From NCBI RefSeq assembly GCF_900100655.1, contig NZ_FNCE01000005.1, positions 124,001 to 188,000 on the forward strand: DNA of 64,000 nucleotides, read 5' to 3'. The notes beneath the pieces were generated by a model. It worked only from the letters and a program-made list of their open reading frames with translations, was not told the DNA's origin and did not search any database. A program made the translations under genes and the position numbers. Source of the stretch: Limimonas halophila (GTDB lineage Bacteria; Pseudomonadota; Alphaproteobacteria; Kiloniellales; Rhodovibrionaceae). Positions 1,909 through 60,400 of this stretch are shown one piece after another (the first letter of the stretch is position 1; every line of letters starts with the position of its first letter).

Positions 1909-2808
1909 ATGATGTCCTCTGCTGATTCTTTCCATCGTTGGACTCCACGGCTCGAACAGTCACGTGCACGCATTCGGTTCGAGCAATATCATAATGAGTT
2001 GAACAATATGTATTGGGCGTCAGTGTCCGCATCAGAATTCGCGGACTATAAAGCACGCCATGCCGACCAAGTTTCGAACGCGCATGATATCTTTTGCGTG
2101 TCTGGAGGAAACGCCCGCCGAGTCCCGCGCGATATCGACAACTGGAGAGCAAGTTTCAGCAATTTCAAGAAATGGCTAAGACTGTCATGCTTGGTCATGG
2201 CCCACTCATATTTTGAAACATATATGAGGAATATTATATCATTAGCACTTTACTCTGATCCTGGGATTCATTTCAATAAACCAAAATTAATTGATGGGAT
2301 AAATCTCGTTAAATATGGCGGTTCTTTAGATGTTGAAGATTCCGTCAAGAGGCTCGTCAAAGGAGCCTGGGAAGATCGGATTATGAATTATGAAGCTCTA
2401 TTCTCGAGAGCTCCTGATAAAGTTAAGAATAACCAAGAGAAGCTTGATGAATTAAGAAAGAAAAGAAACCGAGTGGCGCATCATTTTGGTAGGATGGAAA
2501 ACGTAACTGATAAGCTAATCGATATTGAAAGCGGAAGTGCTGAAGGAATAAGCGAGGAAAACCTTAAGCGTGCGCTAGAATTATTTGGTGCCTTGGTCGC
2601 CGATTTTGACCAACAGCTAATGGAGAATCACATTGGTTCTTTTGAAGATATTTGGAACTTTTGCGAATTCAAGAACGAGTTTTGGCGGCGCTATGGTAGA
2701 ACAACAATCGAGCCGGCAGAGTTCAAAAACGAGCTTTATAGAAAAACAAAAATTCGACCTAATATTTCATATTGCCGTCATCTTATCGCATATTATGAAT
2801 CAATCTAA
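1909..2808 (+). CDS. HEPN-like protein on an AT-rich island
   Basis: This is a 299-aa soluble, mostly helical protein of no family I can name with certainty. Residues 186-192 read RNRVAHH, which contains the R-x4-H signature (R186, H191) of HEPN-superfamily nucleases, preceded by a charged helix (KLDELRKK). HEPN proteins are commonly metal-independent RNases in toxin-antitoxin and phage-defence modules, so an RNA-cleaving role is a reasonable inference but is not shown. The DNA is much richer in A and T than the flanking sdhB and tesA regions and uses codons rare in the neighbours (ATA, TTA, AGA), which suggests recent transfer. No good Shine-Dalgarno precedes the ATG; ATG 1912 is an alternative. 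A second AT-rich gene follows on the same strand. Confidence 0.75.
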   Translation: MMSSADSFHRWTPRLEQSRARIRFEQYHNELNNMYWASVSASEFADYKARHADQVSNAHDIFCVSGGNARRVPRDIDNWRASFSNFKKWLRLSCLVMAHSYFETYMRNIISLALYSDPGIHFNKPKLIDGINLVKYGGSLDVEDSVKRLVKGAWEDRIMNYEALFSRAPDKVKNNQEKLDELRKKRNRVAHHFGRMENVTDKLIDIESGSAEGISEENLKRALELFGALVADFDQQLMENHIGSFEDIWNFCEFKNEFWRRYGRTTIEPAEFKNELYRKTKIRPNISYCRHLIAYYESI

Positions 2809-2973
2809 TTGAACTCGACGCAACGACGTGCCGCATAAGGCTGCATGCTGACTCAACGCCGGCTCCCTAACGATCTATAGGTACGAGAAGGTGCCGTGCT
2901 GCGTGGGCCGTGCCTTCCTAGCGTCCTACCCGTCGCTTGCCAACTCCTGCGTGTGCATGCCACATGTGCCAGC

Positions 2974-4014
2974 ATGTCGCGCTGGTCATTTATCGTCTTT
3001 TGGTTTCTCGCCGGGGCGCTCGGCACTGCTGGCTCGTTCGGCTGTCCGGTAACCTGGGCCGAGCTTTCCGGAATGTTCGAGGTCTCATGGGTGCCGCTGG
3101 GTATCGTGGCCGCCGCCCTGCTTCTTCTCGGCGTCGGCATCTGGGGAGATTCCGAACACTCTCGTGCATATGGAAACCCTGATGTCGATGCCAGTGGTGC
3201 CAATGCATCGCGATCTTCAAACGGAAATGCTCAAGCCTTGCCGCGGCCTTGGTGGCAATGGAAGCTTGCTCTTGTGTGTCGCAGCCTCGTCCCGGCTGGG
3301 CCGAAACACATCGGCTGGGCTGTTGGTTTGGCCGCCTCTGGTGGGTTCGCGGTTGTCCTTATTCCGCCGGTGATGCGGGAGCCCAACCAATGGCAACAGG
3401 CGATTGGAGCAGTGATTGGGTTTCTTGGCCTTGCCGCCGCGGCGCTTTTGAATGCGAAGTTTGAGCGGCAGCGTGATGATCGAAACGACGCCAAGCATGC
3501 TGATGCGATCAGGCAGGTTTTTATGGCGGAGTTGTTCCGTTTACAGGAGATGGAACGGAATATATACGATCCTGGACTGGATATAGATAAAGAGAATACG
3601 CCAATCGAAGAGTACAGAAGACGCTTACAAGAGGCTATTTCTGAATGGTTGCGCAACCTTAACACCCCTATTTACAAACAGTATCAAGATCGACTAGATT
3701 CATTATCGGCTATAGAATGCAAATATGTATTGGAATTTTATAACTTTCTCGAAAAAGCGAGGCGGTCGGTCAATGAATGTAAGCAAAATATAAAAACTCT
3801 GGACAAGCAAAACTACACAGAACAGGAGAACCGAAAAGCCTTAAACGAATTATATAATGAAATATTGACAAGTTCCATATTTGATCGTGCGAAAGAAACT
3901 CGAAATAAAATCGAAGAAAATGGGAGAGAAATAGTACCAATGACAACGCAGTATGCGATGGATGTTTTTCCAAATCCTAACCAGAAGGGCGAGTCTGCGA
4001 CGTCAGAGCAATAG
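2974..4014 (+). CDS. Four-TM membrane protein with helical cytoplasmic tail
   Basis: This hypothetical membrane protein has 346 aa from the ATG at 2974; a GTG at 2896 with an AGAAGG just upstream is the alternative and adds 26 residues. Hydrophobic segments lie at about residues 2-22, 42-58, 110-132 and 142-161 (numbered from the ATG). A basic stretch (KFERQRDDRNDAKHAD) and about 180 residues of charged, coiled-coil-like helix follow. The N-terminal half has GC-rich codons, whereas everything after about 3480 is AT-rich like the HEPN-like gene upstream. I recognise no catalytic motif. Its place behind a HEPN-like gene on an atypical island suggests, without proof, that the two form one module in which this protein is a membrane-anchored partner. 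Confidence 0.7.
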   Translation: MSRWSFIVFWFLAGALGTAGSFGCPVTWAELSGMFEVSWVPLGIVAAALLLLGVGIWGDSEHSRAYGNPDVDASGANASRSSNGNAQALPRPWWQWKLALVCRSLVPAGPKHIGWAVGLAASGGFAVVLIPPVMREPNQWQQAIGAVIGFLGLAAAALLNAKFERQRDDRNDAKHADAIRQVFMAELFRLQEMERNIYDPGLDIDKENTPIEEYRRRLQEAISEWLRNLNTPIYKQYQDRLDSLSAIECKYVLEFYNFLEKARRSVNECKQNIKTLDKQNYTEQENRKALNELYNEILTSSIFDRAKETRNKIEENGREIVPMTTQYAMDVFPNPNQKGESATSEQ

Positions 4015-4053: not shown

Positions 4054-4088
4054 GTGCGGCGCCTTGCGGCCCGTTGGGCCGCGAAGGT
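4054..4088 (+). repeat. 35-bp direct repeat, copy 1
   Basis: This 35-bp sequence recurs at 4266-4300 with 33 of 35 bases identical. Its core, GCGGCCC-GTT-GGGCCGC, folds into a GC-rich hairpin. The stretch 4015-4501 (487 bp) contains no gene I can support; it holds these repeats, a shorter tandem repeat and one further hairpin. Confidence 0.8.
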
Positions 4089-4116
4089 ACCTGACAGTTG
4101 AGGAAGGTACCTGACA
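4083..4116 (+). repeat. Tandem 14-bp repeat GAAGGTACCTGACA
   Basis: GAAGGTACCTGACA occurs at 4083-4096 and again at 4103-4116, a 20-bp period. The first copy runs directly out of the 35-bp repeat. It resembles the end of a mobile element, but no transposase lies nearby. Confidence 0.7.
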
Positions 4117-4149
4117 ATCGAGCCATTGGGCTCCGCCGCCGGACTCGTC

Positions 4150-4173
4150 ATTGCAAGACCCCGATCTTGCAAT
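4150..4173. repeat. Perfect 9-bp hairpin
   Basis: ATTGCAAGA (4150-4158) and TCTTGCAAT (4165-4173) are exact reverse complements around a CCCCGA loop. No T-run follows on either strand, so it is not an obvious terminator. Confidence 0.6.
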
Positions 4174-4265
4174 CCAGCCAATCCGCGCGGTCGCGCTTCG
4201 GAAGCTGCCGGACCGTGTTCCGACCCAAGGGCCTGACCGACCCCACCAACCGCGAAGCCGTCGGT

Positions 4266-4300
4266 GTGCGGCGCCTTGCGGCCCGATGGGCCGCGAAGGC
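4266..4300 (+). repeat. 35-bp direct repeat, copy 2
   Basis: This is the second copy of the repeat at 4054-4088, differing at two bases (GAT for GTT in the loop, and the last base). Further on, 4338-4361 and 4411-4434 also resemble each other (both carry GCCCCCAG-TCCC-AGAC), so the whole stretch looks built from decayed duplications. Confidence 0.8.
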
Positions 4301-4501
4301 GCCCGACAAGCCGGGCGTCCGCTGACCGGTCACGCTGGACAAGCCCCCAGGTCCCAAGACAGCCGCAGCCGTCGCGTTTGGATGGCGTCCATACGCAGAC
4401 CGGGCCTGTTGACAGGCCCCCAGTTCCCTAGACCGTAGCGGGCGGTAGAGATGTGTCTGCATGCGCTTCCTGACAGACACCATGGAACAAGTGTTGTTCC
4501 C

Positions 4502-5272
4502 TCACTGGGCCGTGTAGCCGCCGTCGATGACGAGTTCGCTGCCGGTCATGAACTTGGCGTCGTCGGAGGCGAGGAAGGCGATGCCGGCGGCAATGTCCTC
4601 GGGCTCGCCGACGTGGCCGATGGGGTGGCGGGAGTCCAGCTCCTTGCGGAACGCCTCGACGCCCTGGGGCGAGTTCTTGCCCAGGTCCTCGACCAGCGGC
4701 GTCCAGATGAAGCCGGGGTGGACGGAGTTCACGCGGATCTTGTCCTTGGCGTAGAAGAGGGCGTCGGTCTTGGTCATCTCGCGCACGGCGCCCTTGGAGG
4801 CGTGGTAGGGCGGGATGTCGCGCGCGCCGATGATGCCGTAGATCGAGGACAGGTTGATGATGCTGCCGCCGCCATTGGCGCGCATGTGCCCGACGGCGTG
4901 CTTGGTGCAGTAGAAGACGCCGTTGACGTTCACGTTGATGACGGTGTTCCAGTCCTCGGCGCTGATTTCGTGCGGCTCGGCGTTGATGCCGGCGATGCCG
5001 GCGTTGTTGACCATCGTGTCCAGGCGGCCCCAGGTGTCCACCACCTCGGCGAGGACGCGGGCGACGGCATTCTCGTCGGTGACGTCGAGGCGCCAGTAGG
5101 CGGCCGTGCCGCCGGCCTTCTCGATGGCGTCCACGACCTGCCGGCCGGCGTCGTCGGCCACGTCGGTGACGGCGACCTTGGCGCCCTCGCGCGCCAGGCG
5201 CTCGCAGGCGGCGGCGCCGATGCCCTTCGCGCCGCCGGTGACGACGGCGACTTGGCCGGTAAGGCGGTTCAT
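4502..5272 (-). CDS. Short-chain dehydrogenase/reductase (SDR)
   Basis: This is a 256-aa classical SDR, an NAD(P)-dependent oxidoreductase of the cytosol. It has the cofactor motif TGGAKGIG at residues 12-19, NNAG near residue 90, a catalytic serine in NLSSIYG, and the Tyr-x3-Lys pair Y156 and K160 in YHASK. The C-terminal GSELVIDGGYTAQ is typical of the glucose-1-dehydrogenase / 3-oxoacyl-ACP reductase-like branch. The aspartate in VTDVAD at the end of the second strand suggests a preference for NAD over NADP. The substrate cannot be told from sequence. It lies downstream of tesA on the same strand, separated by 90 bp that form an imperfect hairpin, so co-transcription is uncertain. Confidence 0.93.
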   Translation of the reverse strand: MNRLTGQVAVVTGGAKGIGAAACERLAREGAKVAVTDVADDAGRQVVDAIEKAGGTAAYWRLDVTDENAVARVLAEVVDTWGRLDTMVNNAGIAGINAEPHEISAEDWNTVINVNVNGVFYCTKHAVGHMRANGGGSIINLSSIYGIIGARDIPPYHASKGAVREMTKTDALFYAKDKIRVNSVHPGFIWTPLVEDLGKNSPQGVEAFRKELDSRHPIGHVGEPEDIAAGIAFLASDDAKFMTGSELVIDGGYTAQ

Positions 5273-5364: not shown

Positions 5365-6001
5365 AGCTTCCGGACGCGTCCCGCGCCCGCGCCAGCAGCT
5401 TTTTCACCTTGGGCAGCATGTTCTCGACGATGACGCGCACGCCCTCGGCGTTGGGGTGGATGCCGTCATCCTGGTTCAGCGCCGGCTTTTGCGCCACGCC
5501 CTTGAGGAAGAAGGGATAGAAGACGGCGCCGTGCTTCTCCGCCAGCTCGGGATAGATGGCATCGAAGCGCGCGACGTAGTTCTCGCCCAGGTTGCGCGGC
5601 GCCTTCATCCCGGCCAGCAGCGTCGGCAGGTCCTGTTCGGTCAGCCGGCCCAGGATGGCGTCCAGGTTGCGGCGCGTGACGGCGGGATCGATGCCGCGCA
5701 GGGCGTCGTTGGCGCCCAGCACCACGATCACGGCATCCGTGCGCGGGCGCACCACCCAATCCAGGCGCGAGCGTCCGGCTTCCGTGGTGTCGCCGGAGCT
5801 GCCCGCGTTGGTGACGCGCACCGCGTGCCCGGCTTCGCGCAGCGCCGCTTCCAGCTGGTCGGGAAAGGTCTTGCCCTCGGCCAGGCCGTAGCCGTGGACG
5901 AGGCTGTCGCCGAAGGCGAGCAGGCGCAGCGGCTCGGCGGCGGCCGGGGCAGCGGCCAGGAGCGCCAGCGCGGCGGCTAGGACGGCGAGCGGGCGACGCA
6001 T
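5363..6001 (-). CDS. tesA: Periplasmic GDSL lipase / acyl-CoA thioesterase I-like arylesterase
   Basis: This is a 212-aa SGNH-fold hydrolase. The ATG at 6001 is chosen because it starts a clear signal peptide (MRRPLAVLAAALALLAAAPAAA, cleavage about residue 22-23); the frame is open further upstream without coding signs. The four SGNH blocks are present: GDSL with nucleophile S33, SGDTT, GAND and DGIHP with the catalytic Asp/His. The family cleaves acyl esters and acyl-CoA in the periplasm. It is divergent from ybbA-ybbP, the same arrangement as tesA / ybbA-ybbP in E. coli, which supports orthology. The divergent promoters must sit in the 139 bp between 6002 and 6140. Confidence 0.93.
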   Translation of the reverse strand: MRRPLAVLAAALALLAAAPAAAEPLRLLAFGDSLVHGYGLAEGKTFPDQLEAALREAGHAVRVTNAGSSGDTTEAGRSRLDWVVRPRTDAVIVVLGANDALRGIDPAVTRRNLDAILGRLTEQDLPTLLAGMKAPRNLGENYVARFDAIYPELAEKHGAVFYPFFLKGVAQKPALNQDDGIHPNAEGVRVIVENMLPKVKKLLARARDASGS

Positions 6002-6140
6002 TGGTTCGACTCCATCGGGTGAGATGCGAAGGATTTCGGCGTGCGCCGGTTGCGCGGCAAGACGGCGCGGGTTCATTGATCGCGCGCGCCGTGCGCCAAC
6101 ATCCCTGTCCGGCGCCGTCATCCACCACGCGAGTCCCGCG

Positions 6141-6836
6141 ATGATCGATCTCGACACCGTGCATCTGACGCTGCCCAGCCAGGCCGGGCCGGTCCACATC
6201 CTCAAGGGCATCGACCTGCGCGTGGACGGGGGCGAAACCGTCAGCGTCGTCGGCCCCTCGGGCTCCGGCAAGTCGTCGATGATGATGATCGTGGGCGGGC
6301 TGGAACGCCAGACGGCCGGGTTCGTCCACGTGGCGGACCACGACCTCTCGGCGCTGGACGAGGACGGCCTCGCGCGCTTCCGGCGCGAGAACGTCGGCAT
6401 CGTGTTTCAGGACTTCCACCTCATCCCGACGATGACGGCGTTGGAAAACGTCGCCATGCCGCTGGAGTTCGCGGGCCGGCGCGACGCCTTCGACCGCGCG
6501 GCGGACGCGCTGGACCAGGCGGGCCTGGGCGCGCGGCTGTCCCACTATCCCGGCCAGCTTTCGGGCGGCGAGCAGCAGCGCACCGCCCTGGCGCGCGCCT
6601 TCGCCACGCGCCCCAAGCTGCTCCTGGCCGACGAGCCCACGGGCAACCTGGACGGCGCGACCGGCGAACACGTCATGCAGCTCCTGTTCGGCCTGTGCCG
6701 CGACCACGGCTCGACGCTGATGCTCATCACCCACGACATGAGCCTCGCCGGGCGCTGCGACCGCACCGTGGAGCTGGTGGACGGCACCATCCGCGCGGAC
6801 CGCCGGGCGGCGACGGCGGCGCGGGCGACGGCATGA
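6141..6836 (+). CDS. ybbA: ABC transporter ATP-binding protein YbbA (LolD-like)
   Basis: This is a 231-aa ATPase of the MacB/LolD group. It shows Walker A GPSGSGKSS, the Q-loop VFQDFHLIP, the signature LSGGEQQRTALARA, Walker B LLLADEPTGNLD and the H-loop LITHD. The ATG at 6141 gives the normal family length; the frame is open for another 39 codons upstream, but those codons look non-coding. It overlaps ybbP by 4 bp (ATGA) and pairs with it as one transporter. In E. coli the pair neighbours tesA, as here. Its physiological substrate is not established; a role in handling lipid-like compounds together with TesA is inferred from context only. Confidence 0.95.
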   Translation: MIDLDTVHLTLPSQAGPVHILKGIDLRVDGGETVSVVGPSGSGKSSMMMIVGGLERQTAGFVHVADHDLSALDEDGLARFRRENVGIVFQDFHLIPTMTALENVAMPLEFAGRRDAFDRAADALDQAGLGARLSHYPGQLSGGEQQRTALARAFATRPKLLLADEPTGNLDGATGEHVMQLLFGLCRDHGSTLMLITHDMSLAGRCDRTVELVDGTIRADRRAATAARATA

Positions 6837-57495: not shown

Positions 57496-60400
57496 ATGGT
57501 GAACCGCTTCGACACCGCCGATTGGACGTTCAAGGGGCACGCGGGTGCGGTCCGCGATATCCAGCACACGTTCGCGGGTGGTTTTCTCACCGCGGCTGAG
57601 GACGGCACGGCGCGCAAGTTCGTCGAACAGCCCGACGGAAGCGTCACCACGGCGTGGGTTTTCGACGCGCACGCCGGCACCGTGACGGACGTCGAGCGCA
57701 CCGCCAGGGGCGACTTCGTCAGCGTCGGAAGAGACGGCACGGTGCGTGGCTTCTCGGAAACGGCCGACGGAGGCGTGCGCGCCGACTGGACCGTTTCCGC
57801 CGGCACGGGCGACGTCGTTCCCCTTGGCGGCGGCACCTTCGCCGTGGTCGACGGCGCGAGCGTTCGCAAGTTTGCCGTCGGACCGGGAGGCGGCGCCACC
57901 ACGGAATGGACCTTCGACGGCGCGGGCGAGCAGGTCACGGGCGTGGAAACGACGGCGGACGGCGGGTTCGTCGCCGCGTCCCGCGACACCACGGTGTATA
58001 AGTTCGCCGAGACCGGGGGCGGCGGTGTCGCGCCCGAGTGGACCTTCGACGCGCACACGGACGCCGTCGAGGATGTCGAGGTGACACGGGGCGACAGCTT
58101 CGTCACCGCCGGCGCTGATGGCACCGTCCGCAAGATCGGACCCGACGGCCCGGCGTGGACGTGGCGCCCCGACACCCATGACGCCACACCCCCCGTGGCG
58201 AAGGACGTGGAACAGACCGATGACGGTGGGTTCGTGGCGGCCTTCGGCGAGCCCGACAGCGGCCGGAGCACCGAGATTTTCACGTTCGAGCCCACAGGAA
58301 ACGGCGATTTCCGCACCGATTGGACGTTCACCGGCAACGCCGCCTTCGTCTTCGACGTCGAACAGACTCGCGACGGCGGCTTCGTCAGCGCGGCCGCAGA
58401 CGAAACCGTGCGTAGGTTCACGCCGCCCGAGCCGCTCAGCGGGACGCCGGGGGATGACACCCTCGAAGCGGATGCAGACGGCGTTACGATTTTCGGCGGC
58501 GCAGGCGACGACATCTTAACAAGCAAATTCAACAACACCGCGCTGAATGGCGAAAAAGGCAACGACGACCTGACGACCGATCTTTCGGTCAGCACGGATT
58601 CAGCTGAAGCGCTCGAAGGCAGCACGACACAGAACGGTGGTCAGGGCGAGGACACCCTGGAAGCCACGGTTCGGGCCGAGGGTGGCAGTGAAGTGCGCGC
58701 AACGACGAAGCTGGACGGCGGCGATCAGCGCGACACAATTACCGCGAATGCCGTGGCCGCCCGAAGCGGCGAGACGGACTTGCTGGAAACCGTCAATGAA
58801 ATCGATGGTGGCGGGGGCGATGACACCATCGATGCATCTGCGGTTATTAATCTCACAAGTGGGACGTCAAATGCCAAAAATGTAATAAGTGGCGGAGGCG
58901 GCAATGACGATATCGAGGCAACCGCGGAACTTGATGGTGCACCCTCGGAGAGCAGCGTCACCAACATCGTCGATGGCGGAGGTGGTCATGACACGATCAG
59001 TCTCAAAGCGATCGGAGATTTTCACGGACTGACGACACAGGCCCTCAACGAGGTCACTGGCGGAAACGGCAAAGACGAAATCACGGCTGAAGCAAAAGTT
59101 CAGTCGAACGGTGGCCGGACGGCAACGAACGTGCTGGAAGGCGGCAGCGGCGACGACACGCTCACGGCGGAGGGTTTCGGCAATTCCAACACCAGCGGCG
59201 CAGAAGTCTTGAACACCCTTCGCGGCGGTTCCGGCGACGATACAATGGTCGCTGACGGCAAGACGATTAACAGCTTCGGCACGGTCGAAAACACGCTGCG
59301 TGGCGGTGACGGCGACGATGAGATGCGCGCGACCGGCGAGGTTGTGCGTGGGAGCCAACCCGAAGGCACGGTGGAGAACGATCTCGCTGGCGGAGATGGC
59401 AACGACATTCTGACCGCCACTGTCGTTCAAGCCGAGGAAGGGCGCAGCGTGCTCTCCGGCGGCGCCGGCAACGACGAACTCACGGTGAACGGTGGCGATG
59501 CCAATGAGCTGGATGGCGGACGCGGCCAGGATACCCTGATCGGCGGAAGCGGCGACGACCGCCTGGACGGTGGCAAGGATGACGATACCCTGGTTCTGAG
59601 CGCGGGTGCCGATACCCTGATCGGCGGTGCCGGGACGGACACGGTGGAGGTCAGCGGCAGCCGCGACGATTATGCCTTCGAAGACGACAAAAGCACGCTC
59701 GTCGCGCCGAACGGGGACGAGAGCACGCTGCAAAGCGTGGAAGCCGTGGCATTCGAAGATACGACCGTCAGCCTCGGGCAAAATTCGCAACCCCCCAACG
59801 CCAACGACGACAACGCCACCACACCGGCCGGCGAGGCGGTAACGATCGACGTTCTGGCGAACGACAGCGATTCCGACAGCGACGAGTTGACGATTGAGGA
59901 TCCTGGCGAGCCCGCCAATGGCACTGCCGAGGTGGCCGCCGGCAACAGCATTCGCTACACGCCGGATGCCGGTTTCAGCGGGACGGAAACGTTTACGTAC
60001 ACGGTGGCCGACAGCGCGGGAAACACGGCCAGGGCTGAGATCGCAGTGGCCGTGGAAGATGCAGACGGCGGAACCGGCAGCGTCGGCCCCAACCCGCCGC
60101 GCAGCGAGGGGTTGAACATCGTCGTCACCAACGGCGAGGCCCAGACGCTGCGCGTGCCCTTCGCCGCCGATCTGCGCGGCACGGCCGCGGACGAGACCGT
60201 GCAGGTGCCGGCCGGCGGCACGCTCGCCTTTGGCGGCAACACGGGCGACACCGTGGAATTCGCGGCGCCGCTGGATGCTTTCGAGGTCTCCGCCTCGGGC
60301 AACACCATCACCTTCGCCAACGGCGAAACCGAGGCCACGATCGCGCTCAACGGGGACGTCGATCTGGCCTTCGCCGACGGCGGCACCACCGCCACGATCC

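Follow-up and report, generated by a model that had tools for sequence, protein, structure and literature searches.

Two neighbouring accessory genes of Limimonas halophila, here called ORF1 and ORF2, appear to have been acquired separately, a reading to which we give a probability of roughly 60%. ORF1 would be a stand-alone HEPN endoribonuclease, probably serving as a phage-triggered abortive-infection effector, and ORF2 would be an unrelated membrane gene of prophage type that probably belongs to another system. Our sequence comparisons show HEPN membership and a conserved active site in ORF1, place its homologues in mobile and defence contexts, and find the ORF1/ORF2 pairing absent from the compared loci.

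Genomic setting of ORF1 and ORF2

The window analysed here is a 64-kb stretch (G000:C5:124001-188000) of the 3.04-Mb L. halophila genome. Within it, ORF1 and ORF2 are co-oriented and sit between sdhB (954-1730), the 5' neighbour of ORF1, and an SDR gene on the minus strand (4502-5272), the 3' neighbour of ORF2. The flanking genes are housekeeping genes, with sdhA and sdhB upstream and the SDR gene, a GDSL lipase gene and an ABC transporter downstream. Two other members of the host's family keep sdhB but lack the island, and DNA similarity stops where sdhB ends.

The lowest-GC 500-bp segments of the 64 kb fall in this island (minimum 38.6%, against 70.2% overall), and the overall value agrees with the background of about 70% given in the original prediction. 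That prediction also described both genes as low in GC, which is true of ORF1 (41.6%) and of the ORF2 tail (40.4%) but not of the ORF2 membrane half (60.2%), and the intergenic gap (2809..2973) likewise stands at 60.6%. The ORF1 stretch is small, imported DNA. Far from the island, at 58300-59000, lies the next-lowest GC region of the 64 kb (57-60%).

A repeat-rich stretch had been described immediately downstream of ORF2; it is present but modest, consisting of two 43-nt repeats (4054-4096 and 4266-4308) that are 91% identical to each other and can each fold as a strong hairpin, together with two tandem copies of a 20-nt unit (4083-4122). Additionally, sequences of ~32-43 nt at 4353-4390 and 4148-4179 have copies of 84-94% identity at several other sites in the genome.

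ORF1 carries a conserved HEPN domain

ORF1 (1909..2808, plus strand, 299 aa) matches the Ribo L-PSP-HEPN family PF18735 over residues 86-238 (Pfam; E 9.7e-13, 48.9 bits, curated cut-off 28.4). The same model is matched by five of eight family members at E<=1. HEPN domains are defined by an Rx4-6H motif with a polar residue after the arginine, and have a conserved acidic residue further upstream (PMC3710099). The predicted RNase active-site segment of ORF1 spans residues 183-195 (2455..2493, plus strand) and comprises R183, R186-N187-x3-H191-x-F193-x-R195, with residues 186-191 reading R-N-R-V-A-H.

Conservation was assessed in an alignment of eight full-length sequences with 22-30% identity to P0001. 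R186 and H191 lie exactly where the original prediction had placed them and are invariant in all eight, as are F8, R10, F24, W79, E103, Y105, S116, D129, G130 and K135 in the N-terminal part of the protein and W154, R157, L179, R183, N187, F193, R195, I242, G243 and Y296 in the remainder. By reference to PMC3710099, the invariant E103 (2215..2217, plus strand) could represent the second acidic residue conserved in HEPN domains upstream of Rx4-6H; the Ex3[KR] form is present only in part. The match above cut-off, and the fact that R186, N187 and H191 do not vary even among distant homologues, support assignment of ORF1 to the HEPN superfamily, Ribo L-PSP-HEPN type, and bear out the earlier description of the first protein as HEPN-like. 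Since the catalytic pair and the N- and C-terminal segments are conserved at such low identity, the alignment speaks for an RNase maintained by selection, with flanks particular to the family.

AlphaFold runs on ORF1 with a shallow alignment gave two all-helical models that are too poor to define a fold (mean pLDDT 37.5 and 48.0), a profile search of solved structures returned nothing meaningful, and PADLOC models gave no convincing match to ORF1 (best E 0.03).

The Ribo L-PSP-HEPN family belongs to the Abi2/Swt1 group, has a conserved Rx4-6H and is a distant relative of Abi2/AbiF/AbiD; its published members carry a fusion to endoRNase L-PSP or share an operon with ParB (PMC3710099). ORF1 resembles this family in its above-cut-off match, in its Rx4H with N after R and in its upstream acidic residue. 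However, it is a stand-alone protein of ~300 aa whose N- and C-terminal segments show conservation of their own, and neither an endoRNase L-PSP nor a ParB domain was found in ORF1 by Pfam or in the annotated or scanned neighbouring genes. Such a fusion or operon is an association of published members and not the definition of the HEPN domain family. Unlike the abortive-infection HEPN proteins Abi2, AbiF and AbiD, ORF1 has no Pfam match to their models.

ORF1 homologues occur in mobile and defence-rich contexts

Full-length homologues of ORF1 (22-33% identity) were found on plasmids, in one Bacteroidales MAG and in two viral contigs (L049 and L050). The plasmids fall into four lineages, from Citrobacter/Klebsiella/Enterobacter/E. 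coli, Pantoea, Azospirillum and Paracoccus. The two viral contigs were recovered with a motif-based DNA pattern; searching viral contigs with the single proteins found nothing, nor did searches with A1 or A3, and the sole addition from a relaxed pattern (L051) was a chance match in another reading frame. A scan of the genome collection, for which the automatic pattern was poor, yielded one locus, and no HEPN relative was found in phage records. Among 385 alphaproteobacterial genomes ORF1 was found in only one, the window's own, so genome-level co-occurrence has no power here.

Incomplete alphaproteobacterial copies also exist, one truncated (G625) and one split at contig ends (G929), and a tyrosine recombinase ORF adjoins the G625 copy, overlapping its truncation point. 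These copies, together with the short downstream repeats and the isolation of ORF1 among housekeeping genes, would fit an ORF1 that is decaying, left over from a defence island and now without function. Yet the ORF1 of the window is full length and retains every family-invariant residue, and we consider such decay unlikely. Near the truncated G625 copy lies a 186-aa ORF (L030, reverse complement, 5967-6527, minus strand) that contains a stretch resembling R-x-LYNSRS-x3-H and may encode a second HEPN-type protein.

On Citrobacter/Klebsiella plasmids a 253-aa gene and then Gabija (GajA E 7.3e-216, GajB E 6.4e-171) come after the HEPN gene. Seven records cover the full stretch at 100%, and in five others, at 84% coverage, the match begins just past the HEPN gene. 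In the one sister plasmid opened among these five, the 253-aa gene and Gabija are present, the HEPN gene is missing and a type I restriction system lies beyond. Because Gabija thus occurs without the HEPN gene there, and the HEPN gene without Gabija on an E. coli plasmid, the HEPN gene comes and goes as its own unit in a defence-rich place on enterobacterial plasmids. The locus as a whole (L004:5983-11438 and L053) is a variable one, made up of fluoride-type channel genes, the HEPN gene in some cases, the 253-aa gene of unknown function, Gabija and type I restriction; the 253-aa gene remains with Gabija in the opened sister plasmid without HEPN.

In one viral contig (L049), the HEPN gene and a P2-like portal gene (phrog_68, E 1.5e-172) are transcribed towards each other, with the terminase upstream. 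This position matches the cos-proximal spot between gpA and gpQ, described in P2-like phages as a hotspot of anti-phage genes (PMC9122126). In the other viral contig (L050) the copy belongs to a prophage, and a NinB gene lies ~6 kb away; there, a 261-aa gene (720-1505; phrog_30303, unknown function) lies almost directly 3' of the HEPN gene on the same strand. Integrases or transposases are found within ~6 kb of the HEPN gene in Azospirillum, in Paracoccus and on one Enterobacter plasmid.

The gene adjoining the HEPN homologue differs from lineage to lineage. In Pantoea (L006:6967-8124), for example, a 385-aa protein with no Pfam match is encoded 39 bp after the HEPN gene, and by eye it appears PD-(D/E)xK-like (DFIF...IIESKCS). 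The phage-defence setting proposed earlier for the two genes together is supported for the HEPN family, given the Gabija neighbourhood, the P2-like portal-side hotspot, the L050 prophage and several plasmids; the ORF1/ORF2 pair is not supported.

ORF2 belongs to a scattered family of membrane proteins

ORF2 (2974..4014, plus strand) encodes 346 aa; the listed ORF, from GTG 2896, would give 372 aa. The start is probably ATG 2974 rather than GTG 2896, because the closest relative (L012) begins at the aligned methionine, in M-x3-FI-x-FW. Four hydrophobic 19-mers pass a Kyte-Doolittle value of 1.6 and are followed by a charged, helix-rich tail, in line with the four transmembrane (TM) segments and long charged helical tail originally described. 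No curated family matched ORF2 above its cut-off, and weak hits to 23S_rRNA_IVP, four helix bundle and holin PHROGs, all below cut-off or near noise, were set aside.

With a profile built from three sequences (A3), relatives were found in seven other of the 385 alphaproteobacterial genomes. The family shares a membrane segment, then an arginine-rich R-x-R-(D/E) stretch, then a helical tail, and ORF2 is a member of this scattered alphaproteobacterial family of putative membrane anchors. Most relatives have one or two TM segments in a hydropathy scan; L012 has four or five, and it alone can be compared with the N-terminal half of ORF2. It lies in a prophage-like replication region that also encodes a primase, an antirepressor, a helicase and a repressor. 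Its GC content (57/52/33%) shows the same step as ORF2; the AT-rich tail may therefore characterise the ORF2 subfamily and not just the island. The most economical guess is that ORF2 is a prophage-borne accessory ('moron') membrane protein.

ORF1 and ORF2 do not recur as a pair

The original prediction treated the two genes as a possible paired defence module and proposed recurring adjacency as a check. An HMM of the ORF2 family found no match in any of about nine independent HEPN loci, and the HEPN HMM found none in seven ORF2-family loci. The scanned flanks were ~6-8 kb long, shorter in L049 and where the G929 contigs end. With only about ten distinct HEPN loci a conserved HEPN partner could have been missed, and rare co-occurrence of ORF1 and ORF2 is possible, yet the recurrence that defines a module is absent. 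As the two types stand together at no other locus compared, ORF2 looks like a separate newcomer beside ORF1. Neighbours that never recur together were the outcome named in the original prediction as counting against the module, so the two-gene module fails, and the HEPN call stands.

A true two-gene system, with the membrane protein sensing phage or anchoring the complex and the HEPN RNase as effector, would account for two adjacent accessory genes on the same strand that are both partly AT-rich. It would also recall the HEPN-TM immune system of PICIs, mentioned in PMC12948488 and, with citation of Fillol-Salom 2022, in PMC11087260; that name implies a HEPN and a transmembrane protein. Set against this, the ORF1/ORF2 pair does not recur in either set of loci, the genes around HEPN homologues vary between lineages, a gap of 165 bp separates the ORF1 stop from 2974 with no coupling of the two genes, and the membrane half of ORF2 differs in GC. 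Such a system is very improbable here.

ORF1 could instead be the toxin of a toxin-antitoxin pair that maintains a plasmid or island, neutralised by ORF2 or by a missed small antitoxin. HEPN domains are frequent as toxins of this kind (PMC3710099, PMC7641770) and ORF1 homologues are plasmid-borne. However, unlike in HEPN-MNT systems, no MNT nucleotidyltransferase family was matched in the adjacent ORF2, nor was any other antitoxin family in the pair; a recurrent partner gene is absent, and a four-TM protein would be an unusual antitoxin. We regard this, too, as unlikely.

A candidate single-gene defence system

Our preferred reading thus leaves ORF1 as an effector acting alone. Its central HEPN domain (86-238), of Ribo L-PSP-HEPN type in the Abi2/Swt1 clade, lies between conserved N- and C-terminal segments, and the protein most likely dimerises as HEPN RNases do. 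It would be inactive in a healthy cell; phage infection would be sensed through the flanking segments or through a direct phage ligand, and activated ORF1 would cut RNA with R186, N187 and H191, halting growth and phage production, an abortive outcome. We propose this mechanism by analogy to characterised HEPN RNases (PMC3710099) and to Tha (PMC11087260).

Tha is a stand-alone anti-phage HEPN RNase of Staphylococcus phage 80alpha that is activated by phage tail proteins (PMC11087260). Like ORF1 it is a single HEPN protein of ~300 aa with R-N-x3-H (RNSIMH in the prophage-borne Tha-1; PMC11087260), but its HEPN domain is C-terminal, whereas that of ORF1 is central. At sequence level, relatedness of ORF1 to Tha was rejected (hhalign probability 0.1, BLASTP E 0.24), and the analogy is functional only.

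More tentatively, ORF1 and its homologues may constitute a single-gene anti-phage system that has yet to be named, in which the HEPN RNase itself senses phage through its N- and C-terminal segments; they are distributed in plasmids and P2-like phages and from Alphaproteobacteria to Bacteroidales. A role for the four-TM protein as membrane sensor of ORF1 is much less likely than such a single-gene system. If our reading is true, a false two-gene module is removed before others build on the ORF1/ORF2 pairing, and phage-defence candidates gain a stand-alone HEPN effector that is compact and, though rare, widely spread, of a type found in known defence spots such as the Gabija neighbourhood and the P2 portal-side hotspot. 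The conserved flanks, with F8, R10, F24 and W79 on one side of the domain and I242-G243 and Y296 on the other, would then offer concrete places to seek the phage trigger.
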